From contig NZ_RJVB01000008.1 of the NCBI RefSeq assembly GCF_003751505.1, positions 186,001-250,000 on the forward strand: a DNA stretch of 64,000 bases. Reading direction: 5' to 3'. The position numbers and the translations under genes were made by a program. The notes under the pieces are model-generated. The model made no database searches. It had not been told where the DNA came from and saw only the letters and a list, made by a program, of their open reading frames with translations. The DNA is from Erwinia sp. JUb26. GTDB taxonomy: Bacteria; Pseudomonadota; Gammaproteobacteria; Enterobacterales; Enterobacteriaceae. Positions 1,093-60,158 of this stretch are shown here, piece by piece (position 1 is the first letter of the stretch; the number at the start of each line of letters is the position of its first letter).

Positions 1093-1196
1093 ACGTCCTC
1101 TGCGGCCACCGGGCGGTCCTCACGCCACTTTGCGGTACCTTCGGTTTCGACTGTGGGTCTTTCGGCCTGGCTGGCGGTGGGATTGGCGATCGGGGC
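1093..1196 (-). repeat. Truncated tandem copy of the left end of the 1197 element
   Basis: The 22 bp arm at 1093-1114 and the following ~80 bp recur in the same order from 1197, a direct repeat with a period of 104 bp. Only one end of the element is present in this copy, pointing to partial tandem duplication. Confidence 0.85.
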
Positions 1197-1388
1197 ACGT
1201 CCTCTGCGGCCACCGGGCGGTCCTCACGTCGCTGCGCGATGCCTTCGGTTTCGACTACGGGTCTTTCGGACCGGCGCAGAGCGGGCGTCCTGCCCGCGCT
1301 GCGCCTGAGCCCAGCATCCATGCTGGTCTCTCCGGCCCCGCAGCCTGCACCTCAGCGCTGCGGATTGCCCGGTGGCCGCAGAGGACGT
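1197..1388 (-). repeat. Dispersed GGA-loop hairpin element, copy 1
   Basis: This 192 bp element is bounded by perfect 22 bp inverted arms (1197-1218 and 1367-1388; core ACGTCCTCTGCGGCCACC). Read on the minus strand it holds two internal hairpins: 1274-1286 with 1292-1304, loop AGGAC; and 1307-1315 with 1322-1330, loop AUGGAU. It shares the conserved inner sequence of the family (around CAATCCGCAGCGCTGA) with the elements at 1681, 7553, 36176, 58151 and 58546. It lies upstream of crtZ in the sense direction. Confidence 0.85.
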
Positions 1389-1588
1389 ACCCCTTTTGGC
1401 TAACTGCTCGCTGTTTTAAGAACGTAGTTCAGCGTTGAGTGCTCAAAACCGGCTGTATTGCTCAAGACTGCTCTCAGGTTGTTATCCTGGACCTTCAGCT
1501 AGCGACGGCAGTTCACAAAATGGGTTTGTCATGAACTGCACTTAAGCAAAACGATCGCAGGAATGGTGATATTTCTGGCCTTCAGCAG

Positions 1589-1646: not shown

Positions 1647-1680
1647 TTGGTTTTCAGGCAACGCGGAAGTCAGAAAGCAG

Positions 1681-1871
1681 GCGGGTTGTGCCCCCGAGCG
1701 GGCAATCCGCAGCGCTGAACGGAGAGAGGAAGCCAGGATTCGCCCACAGGGAAGTGGGCGAAAGGCCCAGCCGCGCAGGACGCGCGTCTGGGACGGTCCG
1801 TCCGGCTGACGAGCAAAGTGAGGGAACCGCGCAGCGGCGCGAGGACCGCCCGACCGGGGGCACAACCCGCC
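1681..1871 (+). repeat. Dispersed GGA-loop hairpin element, copy 2
   Basis: About 190 bp with inverted arms GCGGGTTGTGCCCCCG at both ends. Hairpin 1 pairs 1739-1747 with 1754-1762 (nine perfect pairs, loop AGGGAA). Hairpin 2 pairs 1766-1776 with 1782-1792 (ten of eleven pairs, loop AGGAC). The right part carries the conserved GGCTGACGAGC and GCGCGAGGACCGCC blocks. The ~30 bp left flank (1651-1680) also recurs at 3734-3764 and, diverged, before 7553, so the mobile or copied unit may extend beyond the arms. Confidence 0.88.
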
Positions 1872-1903
1872 ATCGCTAGGTCCAGACTTTGCTAACATCC
1901 GCC

Positions 1904-3733: not shown

Positions 3734-3815
3734 ATTTTCAGGCAACGCGGAAGTCAGAAAGCAGGCGGGGGCACAACCCGCCAGCATAAGCTCCTGACTT
3801 AGCTAACATCCGCCA
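3734..3815 (+). repeat. Collapsed remnant of the dispersed element
   Basis: The same left flank as at 1651-1680 leads directly into a fused arm (3765-3782, GCGGGGGCACAACCCGCC) and then into the same right flank as copy 2 (GCTAACATCCGCC). The ~170 bp interior is missing, as if deleted between the two arms. The outer AAGTCAG and CTGACTT sequences are inverted repeats of one another. Confidence 0.75.
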
Positions 3816-3835
3816 GCGCCGTTAATCCATGCACT

Positions 3836-7417: not shown

Positions 7418-7552
7418 GGTTCTATCTGGCTGGCGAAGGTATCCAGTTATGAGTAGAAAGTATCCTCATCACCTCTTGCTCAAAGTGTAAAACGGTTACT
7501 TTGATGACAGCGTTATCGACCTTTAGCAGGCAACACGAAAGTCAGATAGCAG

Positions 7553-7742
7553 GCGGGTTGTGCCCCCGAGCGGGCAATCCACAGCGCTGAACGGAGAGAG
7601 GAAGCCAGGATTCGCCTGCAAGGACGCAGGCGAAAGGCCCAGCCGCGCAGGACGCGCGTCTGGGACGGTCCGGCCGGCTGACGAGCGAAGTGAAGGCACC
7701 GCAAAGCGGCGCGAGGACCGCCCGACCGGGGGCACAACCCGC
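7553..7742 (+). repeat. Dispersed GGA-loop hairpin element, copy 3
   Basis: 190 bp with the same GCGGGTTGTGCCCCCG arms as copy 2. Hairpin 1 pairs 7611-7619 with 7626-7634 around loop AAGGAC; its stem differs from copy 2 at both strands of three pairs, so pairing is preserved. Hairpin 2 pairs 7638-7648 with 7654-7664 around loop AGGAC. It occupies the convergent space between the frlD-like gene and sorE and would be read as 3' sequence of the fructosamine operon. Confidence 0.88.
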
Positions 7743-7778
7743 CAGCGTCATCACTTGGCTGGCCCGAAGCCGCAAACA

Positions 7779-36143: not shown

Positions 36144-36175
36144 TTTTGCCCTCTGGAATAACGGTGTCTGCGCTG

Positions 36176-36369
36176 GCTGGCTGATGCCCCGGTTGGGCCG
36201 GTCCTCGCGCCGCTTCGCGGTACCCTCACTCCGTTCGTCAGCCTGTCGGACCAGTTCAGACGGGCCCTCCGTGGCCCGACTGAACTTTTCATCCGCGTCC
36301 ATGCGGATGAATCCTGGCTTTCTCTCTGCGTTCAGCGCTGCGGATGGCCCGCTCGGGGCATCAGCCAGC
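36176..36369 (-). repeat. Dispersed GGA-loop hairpin element, copy 4
   Basis: 194 bp bounded by GCTGGCTGATGCCCCG arms, a different arm from the 1681 and 7553 copies but again matching at both ends. On the minus strand, hairpin 1 is 36288-36296 with 36303-36311 (loop AUGGAC, nine perfect pairs). Hairpin 2 is 36253-36266 with 36273-36286 (loop ACGGAG, thirteen of fourteen pairs). It lies directly after the minus-strand gene ending at 36393, in its sense direction. Confidence 0.88.
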
Positions 36370-36392
36370 CTGCTTTGTGACTTTTGCTACCG

Positions 36393-38258: not shown

Positions 38259-38418
38259 AATATTGAATCGCTTTATGAATAGATAAATAAATGACTAGCA
38301 TATCAGTCAAATTTTAACCGATCCCTCATCTGGAAGGGGAGTGTGGGCGTTTTTTGGTCGGAAAAAAATTGGGTGTGGGGATGGTATCAGGTTGCGGGTG
38401 AAGGCATGGGGTAAATTC

Positions 38419-38498
38419 GATAAGGCGGTAAGGCGATAAGGCGATAAGGCGATAAGGCGGTAAGGCAGTAAGGCAGTAAGGCAGTAAGGCAGTAAGCT
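38419..38498. repeat. Octanucleotide tandem array
   Basis: About ten copies of an 8 bp unit (GATAAGGC, GGTAAGGC, AGTAAGGC). The first half is mostly GATAAGGC and the last half AGTAAGGC, showing stepwise expansion. It encodes nothing. Confidence 0.9.
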
Positions 38499-49774: not shown

Positions 49775-49843
49775 GGTTGCGGCCAGAACGGGCCTTTATC
49801 GAGCATTTTAGAGTGAAATTGCTGCTCATTCTGCGCATGGCGT

Positions 49844-49943
49844 ATCGGGGCTGGCCGGAACGCGGACCCGCTGCCACATCCCTGTACGCTCGGCCTCGCA
49901 CGTCCATGTGCTCGGACGGTCCGCTTATCCGGCCAGCCCCGAT
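49844..49943 (-). repeat. 100 bp palindromic element, copy 1
   Basis: Bounded by ATCGGGGCTGGCCGG and its complement. Read on the minus strand it contains GTACAGGGATGT (49876-49887), identical to the CsrA consensus RUACARGGAUGU. It also contains a GCAC-AUGGAC-GUGC hairpin (49898-49911). Its sequence is otherwise unlike the 190 bp family. Confidence 0.85.
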
Positions 49944-50004
49944 TGCCTGAAGGCTTCGGTGTTGCTGGTGGATTCAGGCTGCTGCACGTTTAGATGTCTG
50001 GCTT

Positions 50005-50104
50005 ATCGGGGTTGGTCGGAACGCGGACCCGCTGTCACGTCCATGTCCGCTCGGCCTCGCACATCCCTGTGCTCGGACGGTCCGCTAACCCGCCCAGCCC
50101 CGAT
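50005..50104 (-). repeat. 100 bp palindromic element, copy 2
   Basis: Same length and plan as the copy at 49844, with diverged arms (ATCGGGGTTGGTCGG and its partner). On the minus strand GCACAGGGATGTGC (50059-50072) forms a five-pair stem around GGGA. A second, weaker ACATGGACGT motif is at 50036-50047. Confidence 0.85.
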
Positions 50105-50221
50105 TGCCCGCATGCTCCTGAGTAGCTGCCTGAAAGTCACTTCCCTCAGGTAGCCCGCCGCGAAAAATTGCTGAACGTCCAGATTCACGATCGTTAACTG
50201 GCAGCAACGCAATGATTTGAA

Positions 50222-53957: not shown

Positions 53958-54099
53958 TTTCTACAGGACGCAAAACGGACGGCAGCAAATGCTGCGATGT
54001 TGACGGTTATGGATAACCGAAACCGGAATCTACAGCTACGCCGTTTGTAGCTGAAAAGCTCACCGTTGTGAGTGATGAAGACTAAAAAGGAACGAATCG

Positions 54100-54711
54100 A
54101 TGATGAAGACTAAGATTGCTAAAACTCTGATGGCTGTACTGGTAGGTTCTGCGCTGGTGGGCGGTTCTGCGATGGCAGAAGAGTCCATGATGAATAAAAC
54201 GCAAAGCTCTGCCGACAGTGCGGGTTCAAAAATCGATAGCTCTATGAAAAAAGTCGGTAACTACATGGATGACAGCGGCGTAACGGCGAAAGTTAAAGCG
54301 GCGCTGGTTGATGACGAAGCGATTAAAAGTACGGATATCTCCGTTAAAACCCACGAAGGCGTGGTGACGCTAAGCGGTTTTGTATCCTCACAGGATCAGG
54401 CCGAAAAGGCAGTCGCGCTGGCTAAGGGAATTGAGGGCGTCAAATCCGTCAGTGATAAACTGCACGTAAAAGACAGCACCAAACAGAGCGTGAGCGGTTA
54501 CGCCGGTGATGCGGCAACGACCAGCGAAATTAAAGCTAAACTTTTAGCTGATGACATCGTGCCGTCGCGCAATGTGAAAGTTGAAACCACCAACGGCGTG
54601 GTCCAGCTTTCCGGTACGGTGAAAACTCAGGCGCAGTCCGAACGCGCTGAAGGAATTGCCAAAGCCATTGATGGCGTCAAAAGTGTGAAGAACGATCTGA
54701 GCGTTAAATAG
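54100..54711 (+). CDS. osmY: Periplasmic osmotically inducible protein OsmY
   Basis: 203 residues with a signal peptide ([25 protein letters not shown]) and two BON domains (about residues 60-125 and 137-203). These share the pattern [17 protein letters not shown] and KSVSDKLHV. OsmY acts as a stress-induced periplasmic chaperone. AAAGGAACG precedes the double ATG. A sigma-S-like -10 element is upstream. Confidence 0.95.
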
Positions 54712-57220: not shown

Positions 57221-58000
57221 ATGTCCGATGTGAAAACGCAGGCGCTGCGCGCGCTGAAGCTGATGGATTTAACCACCCTGAACGACGATGACACCGATGC
57301 GAAGGTGATTGCCCTTTGCCATCAGGCGAAATCTCCGGCGGGCAACACGGCGGCGATCTGTATTTATCCACGCTTTATTCCGGTCGCCCGTAAGACCCTG
57401 CGCGAACAGGGCACGCCGGAAATTCGTATCGCGACGGTGACCAATTTCCCGCACGGCAACGACGATATAGAAATTGCTCTGGCAGAAACTCGTGCGGCTA
57501 TTGCCTACGGCGCTGATGAAGTCGACGTGGTTTTCCCGTATCGCGCGCTGATCGCCGGTAATGAAACCGTTGGCTTTGAGCTGGTAAAAGCCTGTAAAGA
57601 GGCCTGCGCGGCAGCGGGCGTATTGTTAAAAGTGATTATCGAAACCGGCGAACTGAAAGACGCGGCGCTGATCCGCAAAGCATCGTCGCTCGCGATCGAT
57701 GCGGGTGCTGATTTCATTAAAACCTCAACCGGTAAAGTGCCGGTGAACGCCACGCCGGAAGTGGCAGAAATTATGATGCGGGTGATTGCAGAGAAGGGTG
57801 TGCAGCAGCAGGTTGGCTTTAAGCCCGCGGGCGGCGTGCGTACTGCCGATGATGCGGCGCTGTATCTGAAGCTGGCCGATGACATTCTGGGCAGCGGCTG
57901 GGCCGACGCGCGTCATTTCCGCTTTGGCGCATCAAGCCTGCTGGCGAGCCTGCTGAACGCGGCGGGTTTTGCCGGGGCTAGCAGCGATAGTAAGTATTAA
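57221..58000 (+). CDS. deoC: Deoxyribose-phosphate aldolase DeoC
   Basis: 259 residues, a class I aldolase TIM barrel. The Schiff-base lysine lies in [17 protein letters not shown], and VFPYRALI and IETGELKD are other conserved strands. It splits deoxyribose 5-phosphate into glyceraldehyde 3-phosphate and acetaldehyde. It is the first deo gene; an 835 bp repeat-filled spacer separates it from deoA. Confidence 0.97.
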
Positions 58001-58090
58001 TCGCGTATTTGTTTTGGTGGTGCGGGTTTTGCTGGCGTAGCGGATTCGGCTGGTCGTGGCTGGAGCGTTAAGGCTTTTGGGTCGAAAGGT

Positions 58091-58128
58091 CGATTTAGTC
58101 GATTTAGTCGATTTAGTCGATTTAGTCG
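58091..58128. repeat. Nonanucleotide tandem repeat
   Basis: CGATTTAGT is repeated about four times in succession, 90 bp after the deoC stop codon. Confidence 0.9.
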
Positions 58129-58150
58129 CTTTGGTTGTCGTGGGTGTTTC

Positions 58151-58350
58151 GGGCCTCTGCGGTGGCTGGATGGCGGTCCTCGCGCCGCGCTTTGCGCGGT
58201 GCCCTCGGCTCCGGCATCCGGCCTTACGGATCGGCAATGAGCGGGCGTCCTGCCCGCGCATCGCCTGACGTCAGCGTCCCTGCTGCCGTCTCCGGGCCCG
58301 CTGCTTTCGCCTCAGCGCTGCGGATTGCCATCAAGCCACCGCAGAGGCCC
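58151..58350 (-). repeat. Dispersed GGA-loop hairpin element, copy 5
   Basis: 200 bp with arms containing GCCTCTGCGGTGGCT at both ends, again private to this copy. On the minus strand the hairpins are 58241-58246 with 58252-58257 (loop AGGAC) and 58267-58275 with 58282-58290 (loop AGGGAC). It lies antisense to the deo transcript. Confidence 0.85.
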
Positions 58351-58388
58351 TTTACTATCAGGCATCCCGATTGCTGTTTTTCAACGAC

Positions 58389-58445
58389 GACACTAACGGA
58401 ACAAAGCGGGCTGGCGGTGTCGGTGGTCGGGTTAATCCGGTGGCC
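58389..58445 (+). repeat. Partial left end duplicated from the 58546 element
   Basis: The stretch CGACACTAACGGAACAAAGC followed by GGGCTGGCGGTGTC occurs here and at 58524-58557. The copy then diverges after the arm. Confidence 0.8.
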
Positions 58446-58545
58446 ACAGCATTGAACGCAATAGACGCTGGAAGCAGCAGACACAGCATGCAAACAAGCA
58501 TCAGACCTGGTGTTTCACAAAGACGACACTAACGGAACAAAGCGG

Positions 58546-58740
58546 GCTGGCGGTGTCTGTGGCAAGGGCAATCCGCAGCGCTGAACGGAGAGAGGAAGCC
58601 AGGATGAGCCCGCAGGACGCGGGCGCAAGGCTCGGTCGGCACAAGGATGTGCCGTCTGAGCCGGTCCGGCCGGCTGACGAGCGGAGTGAAGGCACCGCAA
58701 AGCGGCGCGAGGACCCGCCCTGGACACAGACACCGCCAGC
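58546..58740 (+). repeat. Dispersed GGA-loop hairpin element, copy 6
   Basis: 195 bp bounded by GCTGGCGGTGTCTGTG arms. Hairpin 1 is 58608-58613 with 58619-58624 (loop AGGAC). Hairpin 2 is 58629-58642 with 58649-58662 (loop AAGGAU); its apex GCACAAGGATGT fits the CsrA consensus at 11 of 12 positions. It lies in sense orientation within the deo transcript, ending 95 bp before deoA. Confidence 0.88.
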
Positions 58741-58835
58741 CAGCGCAGATCGCCATTCCGTCAGGCGATGCAATGAAATGTACACAACAAGCACCGAGCC
58801 GCCCGGCGGCCACACTAAACTTATTGGGGGTTACC

Positions 58836-60158
58836 GTGTTTCTGCCACAGGAAATTATTCGAAAAAAACGTGACGGACAGGCGCTGAGCGAAGAAGAAAT
58901 CCGCTTTTTCATCAACGGCGTGCGCGACAATACGGTCTCTGAAGGACAGATTGCCGCGCTGGCAATGACCATCTACTTCCACGATATGTCGCTGCCGGAG
59001 CGCGTGGCGCTGACCATGGCCATGCGCGACTCCGGATCGGTGCTGAACTGGCAGTCGCTGAACCTCAACGGCCCAATCGTCGATAAACATTCCACCGGCG
59101 GCGTCGGCGACGTGACCTCACTGATGCTCGGACCGATGGTCGCCGCATGCGGCGGCTACGTGCCAATGATCTCCGGTCGCGGCCTTGGCCACACCGGCGG
59201 CACGCTCGACAAGCTGGAAGCGATCCCCGGCTTTGATATCTTCCCGGACGATGAGCGTTTCCGACAGATCATTAAAGAGGTGGGCGTGGCGATCATCGGC
59301 CAGACCAACTCGCTGGCCCCGGCGGACAAGCGCTTCTACGCCACCCGCGATATCACCGCGACGGTGGATTCGATCCCGCTGATCACCGCCTCGATCCTGG
59401 CGAAAAAGCTGGCCGAGGGGCTGGATGCGCTGGTGATGGATGTGAAAGTGGGATCCGGCGCCTTTATGCCAACCTTCGAACAGTCCGAGCTGCTGGCGCA
59501 GTCGATCGTCGGCGTGGCGAACGGCGCGGGCTGTAAAACCACCGCGCTGTTGACCGACATGAACCAGGTACTGGCCTCTACCGCCGGTAACGCGCTGGAA
59601 GTCCGTGAAGCGGTGCAGTTCCTCACCGGCGAATACCGCAACCCGCGCCTGCTGGAAGTCACCATGGCGCTGTGCGCCGAGATGCTGATTTCCGGTGGTC
59701 TGGCGGGCTCGGCGGAAGAAGCGCGTACAAAACTGCAGACCGTGTTGGATAACGGCCGCGCGGCGGAGATCTTCGCCCGTATGGTGGCGGCCCAGAAAGG
59801 CCCGACCGATTTTATCGAGCGCATGGACAGCTATCTGCCCGCGCCAATGCTGAGCAAAGCGGTTTACGCCGATCGTGCCGGGATCGTCAGCGCAATGGAT
59901 ACCCGCGCGCTGGGCATGGCGGTGGTGTCGATGGGCGGTGGTCGCCGCCGCGCCAGCGACAGCATTGACTACAGCGTTGGGTTGAGCGACGTTGCCGCGC
60001 TGGGTACGACGGTGGACGGTCAGCAGCCGCTGGCGGTGATCCACGCCGCCAGCGAAGAGAGCTGGCAGGAGGCCGCCGCCGCCGTCAGGACGGCAGTGAC
60101 GCTGTCTGAGACGCAGCCCGAGAAAACACCGGTTATCTATCGCAGAATCTCGCAATAA
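58836..60158 (+). CDS. deoA: Thymidine phosphorylase DeoA
   Basis: 440 residues from GTG 58836, which has TTGGGGG just upstream and begins with the expected [13 protein letters not shown]. The long in-frame extension to 58647 runs through the repeat element and is rejected. The phosphate and substrate motifs KHSTGGVGD and [18 protein letters not shown] are intact. It converts thymidine and phosphate to thymine and deoxyribose 1-phosphate. Confidence 0.96.

Follow-up and report, generated by a model that had tools for sequence, protein, structure and literature searches.

The gap between deoC and deoA of Erwinia sp. JUb26, whose genome is Pantoea-like, carries a structured element of the RNA family TwoAYGGAY (RF01731) with GGA in the loops of two adjacent hairpins, and the window analyzed here, a 64-kb stretch of this genome, holds six elements of the kind. 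An earlier note on this DNA had described the shared loop GGA; that observation is confirmed and stands well above chance. According to our analysis, such elements are the arms of a composite repeat, which in Pantoea relatives is a mobile unit that targets terminators, an origin of the dispersal that the earlier note did not foresee. The explanation that best covers the results as a whole, and that we hold with slightly better than even confidence, is that TwoAYGGAY arms are predicted two-site CsrA clamps carried by IS4-type composites that insert into terminators.

The TwoAYGGAY Arm Between deoC and deoA

The interval 58546–58740 is a real structured element, with an outer stem of 28 nt whose arms are 89% complementary. 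In window coordinates, the gap and its neighbors are organized as follows:

57221–58000, plus strand: deoC (TIGR00126), upstream neighbor of the composite
58139–58358, minus strand: B-type arm, divergent partner of the focal arm; loops AGGGAC and AGGAC; RF01731 at 42.5 bits, just below the cut-off of 43
58359–58537, no strand: center between the two arms, with a partial A-leader repeat (58359–58439 against 58495–58575)
58538–58751, plus strand: focal A-type arm (TwoAYGGAY element) with outer stem; the GGA (sense) strand is plus
58542–58569, plus strand: 5′ half of the outer stem, pairing with 58717–58744
58608–58624, plus strand: hairpin 1, GCCCGC-AGGAC-GCGGGC, loop GGA at 58615–58617
58629–58662, plus strand: hairpin 2, apex GCACAAGGATGT, loop GGA at 58645–58647
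58695–58705, plus strand: hairpin 3, CCGC-AAA-GCGG, loop without GGA; a conserved GAGGACC lies 3′ of the hairpin
58717–58744, plus strand: 3′ half of the outer stem, pairing with 58542–58569
58836–60158, plus strand: deoA-type thymidine phosphorylase (TIGR02643), downstream neighbor, followed by deoB and deoD

The match to RF01731 covers 58600–58677 (52.9 bits against a gathering score of 43) and is partial, spanning model positions 43–123 of 168. The full focal arm (58538–58751, plus strand) folds with −123 kcal/mol (z = −6.8); because the minus strand also folds well (z = −7.0), the strand cannot be chosen from folding energy alone. RUACARGGAUGU is given as the CsrA SELEX consensus in the consulted part of PMC7652899, and the agreement of the hairpin 2 apex at 58629–58662 with this consensus at 11 of 12 positions, as claimed earlier, was borne out for GCACAAGGATGT, although agreement is much poorer on average. 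Per hairpin set, the best match has a mean of 7.0–8.5 of 12 positions (5.5–6.3 on the antisense strand), so that the focal apex is untypical among the hairpins; a match at all 12 positions occurs at hairpin 2 in 4 of the 49 B arms.

The deoC-deoA composite is common to the window genome, G013, and G007, the last of which lacks the core of the focal arm. It is absent from G001, G005, and G036, where the flanks are too diverged for a clean empty-site junction to be demonstrated.

Several arms have tandem arrays, with units of 7–10 bp, that start at their outer (3′) edge; the last bases of the arm are often part of the unit. They were seen in G000 at C8:244221, C1:36323, C5:147828, C1:29561, C1:956166, C3:427703, and C12:66809, and in the region of window positions 58070–58095. 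At deoC, the array unit is GTCGATTTA in the window genome and GTCGGTTTA in G007, and there is no array in G013.

Further Copies and Family Assignment

The other window elements are two arms that form a pair and two single arms:

1184–1399, minus strand: B-like arm; loops AUGGAU and AGGAC
1673–1884, plus strand: A-type arm, partner of 1184–1399; loops AGGGAA and AGGAC
7544–7755, plus strand: single A-type arm between convergent genes; loops AAGGAC and AGGAC
36164–36378, minus strand: single A-type arm between convergent genes; loops AUGGAC and ACGGAG

In the arm alignments, all twelve loops that the earlier note had listed for the six elements are present exactly as listed. Further RF01731 matches above the gathering score lie at 36233–36316, 1268–1333, 7606–7681, and 1734–1809, and no match of the window elements to RF02770 (Ysr224) was obtained at gathering thresholds. 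Across the genome, at least 111 matches to RF01731 were found, at least 96 of them over the cut-off, with 150 of the 206 candidates scored. The likeness to TwoAYGGAY consists of two adjacent hairpins with AYGGAY-type loops and a direct match above the curated cut-off; the loops in the window genome have the form A(N)GGA(N) and are AYGGAY only in part. TwoAYGGAY and CsrB belong to the same Rfam clan (CL00106), and the host genome has one CsrA gene match and one CsrB gene over the cut-off.

Partial arm or leader copies adjoin full ones at window positions 3735–3821, 1075–1275, and 1900–1962. The window also holds an 8-bp tandem array at 38402–38497 (of the CGATAAGG / CAGTAAGG type), a direct repeat of 130 nt with 85% identity and a spacing of 161 nt at 49838–50128, and an Rfam osmY RNA (RF03036) above the cut-off at 54032–54102.

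Conservation of Loops and Stems

End-to-end alignment was possible for 110 of the 111 arms, one having been dropped for want of a 3′ anchor. The aligned arms comprise 61 of A type and 49 of B type, and the B set includes nine arms of unclear or no assigned type. Loop GGA is conserved genome-wide, in 219 of the 220 loops: at hairpin 1 in 109 of 110 arms (A type, 61/61; B type, 48/49) and at hairpin 2 in all 110 (61/61 and 49/49). The claim that all internal hairpins present GGA in the loop therefore holds for hairpins 1 and 2, but not for the third hairpin at 58695–58705. The two loop GGAs are spaced by 28–30 nt in 108 of 109 arms. The total number of GGAs per arm (6.9) is not above that in a composition shuffle (6.3; antisense strand, 3.0); what is special about the GGAs of the arms is their position and conservation, not their number.

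The stems differ among the copies with paired changes, as had been read from the six window elements: among the pairs predicted by RNAalifold, 38 of 50 in A arms and 39 of 55 in B arms show at least one double-sided change. In long inverted repeats, covariation can also arise through template switching without selection. On the GGA strand, G-U wobbles exceed A-C mismatches (130 against 45 cells; 39 against 16 pair columns, sign p = 0.003), and the same applies to the inner hairpins taken separately (82 against 17 cells; 22 against 9 columns, p = 0.03), p-values that are only indicative, because the copies share ancestry. Most of this bias comes from hairpin 2 (63 to 4), with 15 to 11 in hairpin 1 and 36 to 25 in the outer stem. 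Such a strand bias argues against a duplex DNA signal read on both strands, and it favors the GGA strand, from which the earlier note had derived a sense direction.

Composite Architecture and Genomic Setting

The arms are arranged in a characteristic divergent order. Among 52 pairs of neighboring arms less than 2 kb apart, 35 are “−+,” 9 “++,” and 8 “−−,” and none is “+−”; of the 28 divergent pairs with a type assigned to each arm, 27 combined one A and one B arm. Between the arms of one pair spaced by 1.5 kb (L063), no transposase-like ORF was found when the ORFs were judged by eye.

Genes around the clusters were called with a home-made program of simple design. Neighbors on both sides were available for 56 clusters, of which 25 lie between convergent, 24 between co-directional, and 7 between divergent genes (two more clusters had a one-sided neighbor). 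The remaining gaps of 80 bp or more in these stretches, 141 in number with some double counting due to a few overlaps, divide into 25, 76, and 40, respectively. Convergent gaps are thus enriched (25/56 against 25/141, Fisher p = 2e-4), and the first four plasmid sites examined are all between annotated convergent genes. In 47 of the 50 cases in which an arm of a multi-arm cluster faces the 3′ end of a gene, it has the antisense orientation relative to the gene; for single arms, the figures are 10 antisense and 14 sense. The 3′UTR-derived sponge suggested earlier for the dispersed copies therefore fits only the far arm after read-through, and not the arm next to the gene.

No sigma-70 promoter signal above shuffles was detected in the arms (score 5.7; base shuffles score 6.0, and 13 gene starts picked by hand score 7.4), and a sense-side T-run (6 of 8) is rare, occurring in 2% of A arms and 6% of B arms against 0 and 1% after shuffling. 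On the antisense side, T-runs are found in 30% of A arms (28% shuffled) and 41% of B arms (23% shuffled). With neither a promoter nor a sense-side terminator in the arms, their RNA would need read-through from outside, which argues against a stand-alone sponge similar to CsrB.

Mobility of the Unit in Pantoea Relatives

Matches to RF01731 occur in 29 of 118 genomes, including that of the window, and in 13 of 37 members of the genus (21 candidates scored per genome, which makes the copy numbers minimum values). This patchy presence within the genus shows that the domain is dispensable. A pattern scan of named genomes placed arms, among the matches listed, in several Pantoea species, Erwinia sp. 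S63, and two Enterobacter assemblies. E. coli genomes and phages yielded no similar DNA (blastn, E up to 1e-5), and the 35 plasmid records with similar DNA are all from Pantoea. Pattern matches in Synechococcus, Terrimesophilobacter, a Clostridiaceae MAG, and Paraburkholderia, isolated and outside Enterobacterales, were taken as chance; those that passed the filter were kept in the count of ends on 114 arms given below and in the SELEX-match counts.

In 80 loci from the pattern scan and 12 plasmid loci, the end CTTAACTGACnAGCATTA (up to 4 mismatches) was present on 53 of 114 arms, a set that includes alleles of the same site. IS4 of E. coli has the ends TAATGCCGATCAGTTAAG and TAATGCCAGTCAGTTAAG and makes a 12-bp duplication; the 18-bp consensus of the unit end, TAATGCTnGTCAGTTAAG, differs from these two ends, apart from n, by 1 and 2 letters. 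In 17 of 29 flank pairs, which include alternative pairings at one place, the target is duplicated over at least 9 bp (up to 2 mismatches); the same applies to 20 of 812 swapped pairs. Two of the 17 are alleles of one site, so that 16 sites are represented. The duplications are 9–14 bp long in these Pantoea relatives, and the duplicated bases are often palindromic and make up the apex of an intrinsic terminator; a T-run lies outside, on one side or on both, in 13 of the 17 cases (7% at random positions). Fourteen of the 17 are two-arm units of 507–565 bp and three are one-arm units of 332–369 bp. Of 12 units from relatives that were inspected for it, 8 contain GTGCCCTTTTT in the center and the other four a variant of it. 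At one site, filled and empty alleles could be compared directly: plasmids SO10 and SS70 carry the unit, and in their sister plasmid X85 the palindrome is uninterrupted, the flanks being about 98% identical; no T-run is present at this site.

In these relatives, the unit is a non-autonomous IS4-type transposon (MITE), often inserted into terminator hairpins between convergent genes. It differs from IS elements and MITEs of the IS4 group in that it has no internal transposase, carries a pair of RNA domains as cargo, and often has a terminator hairpin as target.

The gap between clcA and ampR also varies among plasmids: that of X85 (L252) has an arm, and the sister plasmids L254 and L255 keep only an arm-end fragment, a difference that suggests piecemeal gain or loss of arms. 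One member of the genus, G026, has 39 Nterm_IS4 matches (PF13006; one protein also PF01609) with similar ends; the same genome has 64 Y1 transposase matches and no TwoAYGGAY match.

In the window genome itself, IS4-type ends of the arms are not clearly above a shuffle (best matches against one shuffle). Its 43 composites show no credible target duplication, the five 9-bp repeats found being chance-like and one of them the same place counted twice, and the genome has no Nterm_IS4 match and hence no IS4 partner gene. With neither such ends nor such a transposase in the genome, and judging from homology and layout, the window copies are probably older relics of such mobile units.

Proposed Mechanism and Alternative Explanations

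In the reading that we favor, each element presents, within its outer stem, two adjacent hairpins whose A(N)GGA(Y) loops are separated by about 29 nt, a distance that could be bridged by one CsrA dimer. The A and B arms point outward from the shared center of the composite, and in the relatives, rather than in the window genome, the unit is seen to have inserted often into a terminator hairpin with duplication of the hairpin apex. The terminator would be split by such an insertion, the apex being kept on both sides and the stem-base strands and T-runs lying on opposite sides, so that neighboring transcripts could run into the unit. The arm met second would be in sense and would equip the mRNA with a two-site CsrA clamp in its 3′ part. 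Read-through from the B side may stop at GTGCCCTTTTT in the center, and it may be mainly the B arm that is made in sense. The focal arm, on the plus strand, would be in sense in the deo transcript just before deoA, and would thus constitute a CsrA site in an intercistronic leader. The predicted CsrA binding would alter the stability or translation of the mRNA and would add a distributed CsrA load.

Against the clamp reading, it must be considered that the SELEX hairpins mostly had four or fewer contiguous pairs, according to the consulted part of PMC7652899; the stems of the arms are longer and GC-rich, which may weaken binding. A single CsrB over the cut-off was found in 36 of the 37 genus genomes and three in G004 (30 candidates scored per genome). 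A shrinkage of CsrB where the repeat is abundant was considered and rejected: judged by eye from match lengths, CsrB is not visibly shorter in copy-rich genomes. The three CsrB matches of G004, a genome of 3.4 Mb with at least 20 scored TwoAYGGAY matches, are at C15:34423–34709, C15:34991–35274, and C53:10418–10749.

Two other explanations give the GGA loops no role in CsrA binding. The GGA loops might serve the mobile element itself, as single-stranded DNA hairpins or as RNA for a transposition or replication factor, the resemblance to CsrA targets being coincidental. The patchy, high-copy distribution and the mobility in relatives agree with this, a transposition signal would also show conservation across copies, and the strand asymmetry suits a single-stranded DNA signal as well. 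We nevertheless regard it as unlikely, since the hairpins are internal in the unit and IS4-type transposases act on duplex ends. In addition, the window genome has no Y1 transposase match, TwoAYGGAY is in the clan of CsrB, and a similar GGA pair is found in the sequence-distinct YPAL/Ysr224, whose target duplications are of 3–26 bp in the part of the literature consulted. Alternatively, the arms could act through plain RNA structure, as stable 3′ hairpins at which transcription ends or by which mRNA is protected (a role proposed for YPAL, REP, and ERIC), with incidental GGA. The long, strongly paired stems, the location at gene 3′ ends and in terminators, and the excess of antisense T-runs in B arms (41 against 23% shuffled) all suit this explanation, and YPAL may affect RNA stability according to the consulted part of PMC2229807; however, it leaves unexplained why GGA is kept in 219 of 220 loops and why G-U exceeds A-C on one strand, and we consider it improbable.

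The earlier note had also likened the elements to the CsrB and RsmB RNAs that titrate CsrA. Membership in the clan of CsrB and a total of about 220 loop sites per genome would be in line with stand-alone sponge RNAs in many copies, but each arm offers only two loop sites, the arms lack promoter and terminator signals, and in multi-arm clusters they are mostly antisense to the adjoining gene, all of which makes this explanation very doubtful. Thus, the proposal of CsrA-type binding elements retains the conserved strand-specific pair of GGA loops, the shared clan, and the presence of CsrA and CsrB genes in the genome, and loses the CsrB-like titrating RNA.

Relation to Known Systems

The predicted clamps resemble CsrB/RsmB RNA (RF00018) in the GGA of the hairpin loops and in clan membership. 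CsrB/RsmB is a stand-alone gene with a terminator and many loop sites, present in one copy over the cut-off in the window genome, whereas the arms have two sites each. In Rfam, TwoAYGGAY is of the Cis-reg type; here it is found in amplified form, with a long outer stem, as an arm of a divergent composite. Binding of CsrA by TwoAYGGAY was predicted before, with discussion for Clostridia, in the consulted part of PMC4333381, and in that of PMC2864571 the motif is named once in the main text, in a table. Transposons are not mentioned in the consulted parts of three papers on TwoAYGGAY, these two included, and our literature search otherwise found no paper linking TwoAYGGAY-type CsrA hairpins with mobile repeats. 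The CsrA reading of the family is plausible and not new; what the present analysis contributes is the composite as a mobile unit with terminators as its targets, together with the likeness to YPAL.

REP, BIME, and REPIN sequences resemble the composite in forming inverted pairs in intergenic DNA at the 3′ ends of genes; the arms described here are far longer. An origin as REP/REPIN with Y1 transposase was rejected, as there are no Y1 matches in the window genome; 12 of the 37 genus genomes have one.

The closest mobile parallel to the composite is YPAL/RU-2 of Yersinia, which matches the Rfam family RF02770 (Ysr224). Many YPAL targets reportedly overlap terminators. The consulted part of the literature describes YPAL/RU-2 as a mobile repeat of about 168 bp, with targets that span or lie next to dyad symmetry and with both empty and filled sites. 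It differs there from the Pantoea unit in its family (RF02770, without a clan), its single arm, its duplications of 3–26 bp, and in that no IS4-type ends were found. The YPAL sequence printed in the consulted part of PMC2759123 folds into two adjacent hairpins with GGA loops, one of which agrees with the CsrA consensus at 10 of 12 positions. Of 295 genomes of the order, each searched with two candidates scored, 38 contain YPAL-like DNA, and many of the matches are confined to those two hairpins. All six YPAL-like loci checked match RF02770 Ysr224, three of them over the cut-off, and by eye GGA is kept in both loops in five of the six. Ysr224 is described as temperature-responsive in the consulted part of PMC9029176, and as multi-copy expressed transcripts in Y. 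ruckeri in that of PMC12112432. No paper naming both YPAL and CsrA was found in our literature search.

It is possible, and we suggest it tentatively, that pairs of CsrA-type GGA hairpins are a recurrent cargo of terminator-targeting mobile repeats in Enterobacterales, present in the Pantoea TwoAYGGAY composites and separately in YPAL/Ysr224. In that case, each insertion would rewire the 3′ ends of neighboring transcripts into the Csr network, amplification would build up a distributed CsrA load of about 220 sites across the genome, and transposition would thus tune a global regulator.

Members of the genus differ widely in the copy number of the domain, some having more than a hundred copies and others yielding no match. 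The prediction is a concrete one: it names two loops in each arm and points to one particular arm, that between deoC and deoA. It would join an Rfam family of unproven function with small mobile repeats whose action has been ascribed to RNA structure as such. Should CsrA bind the arms, ready-made regulatory sites would have been spread into terminators by transposons, which would be a direct way to rewire a global post-transcriptional network.
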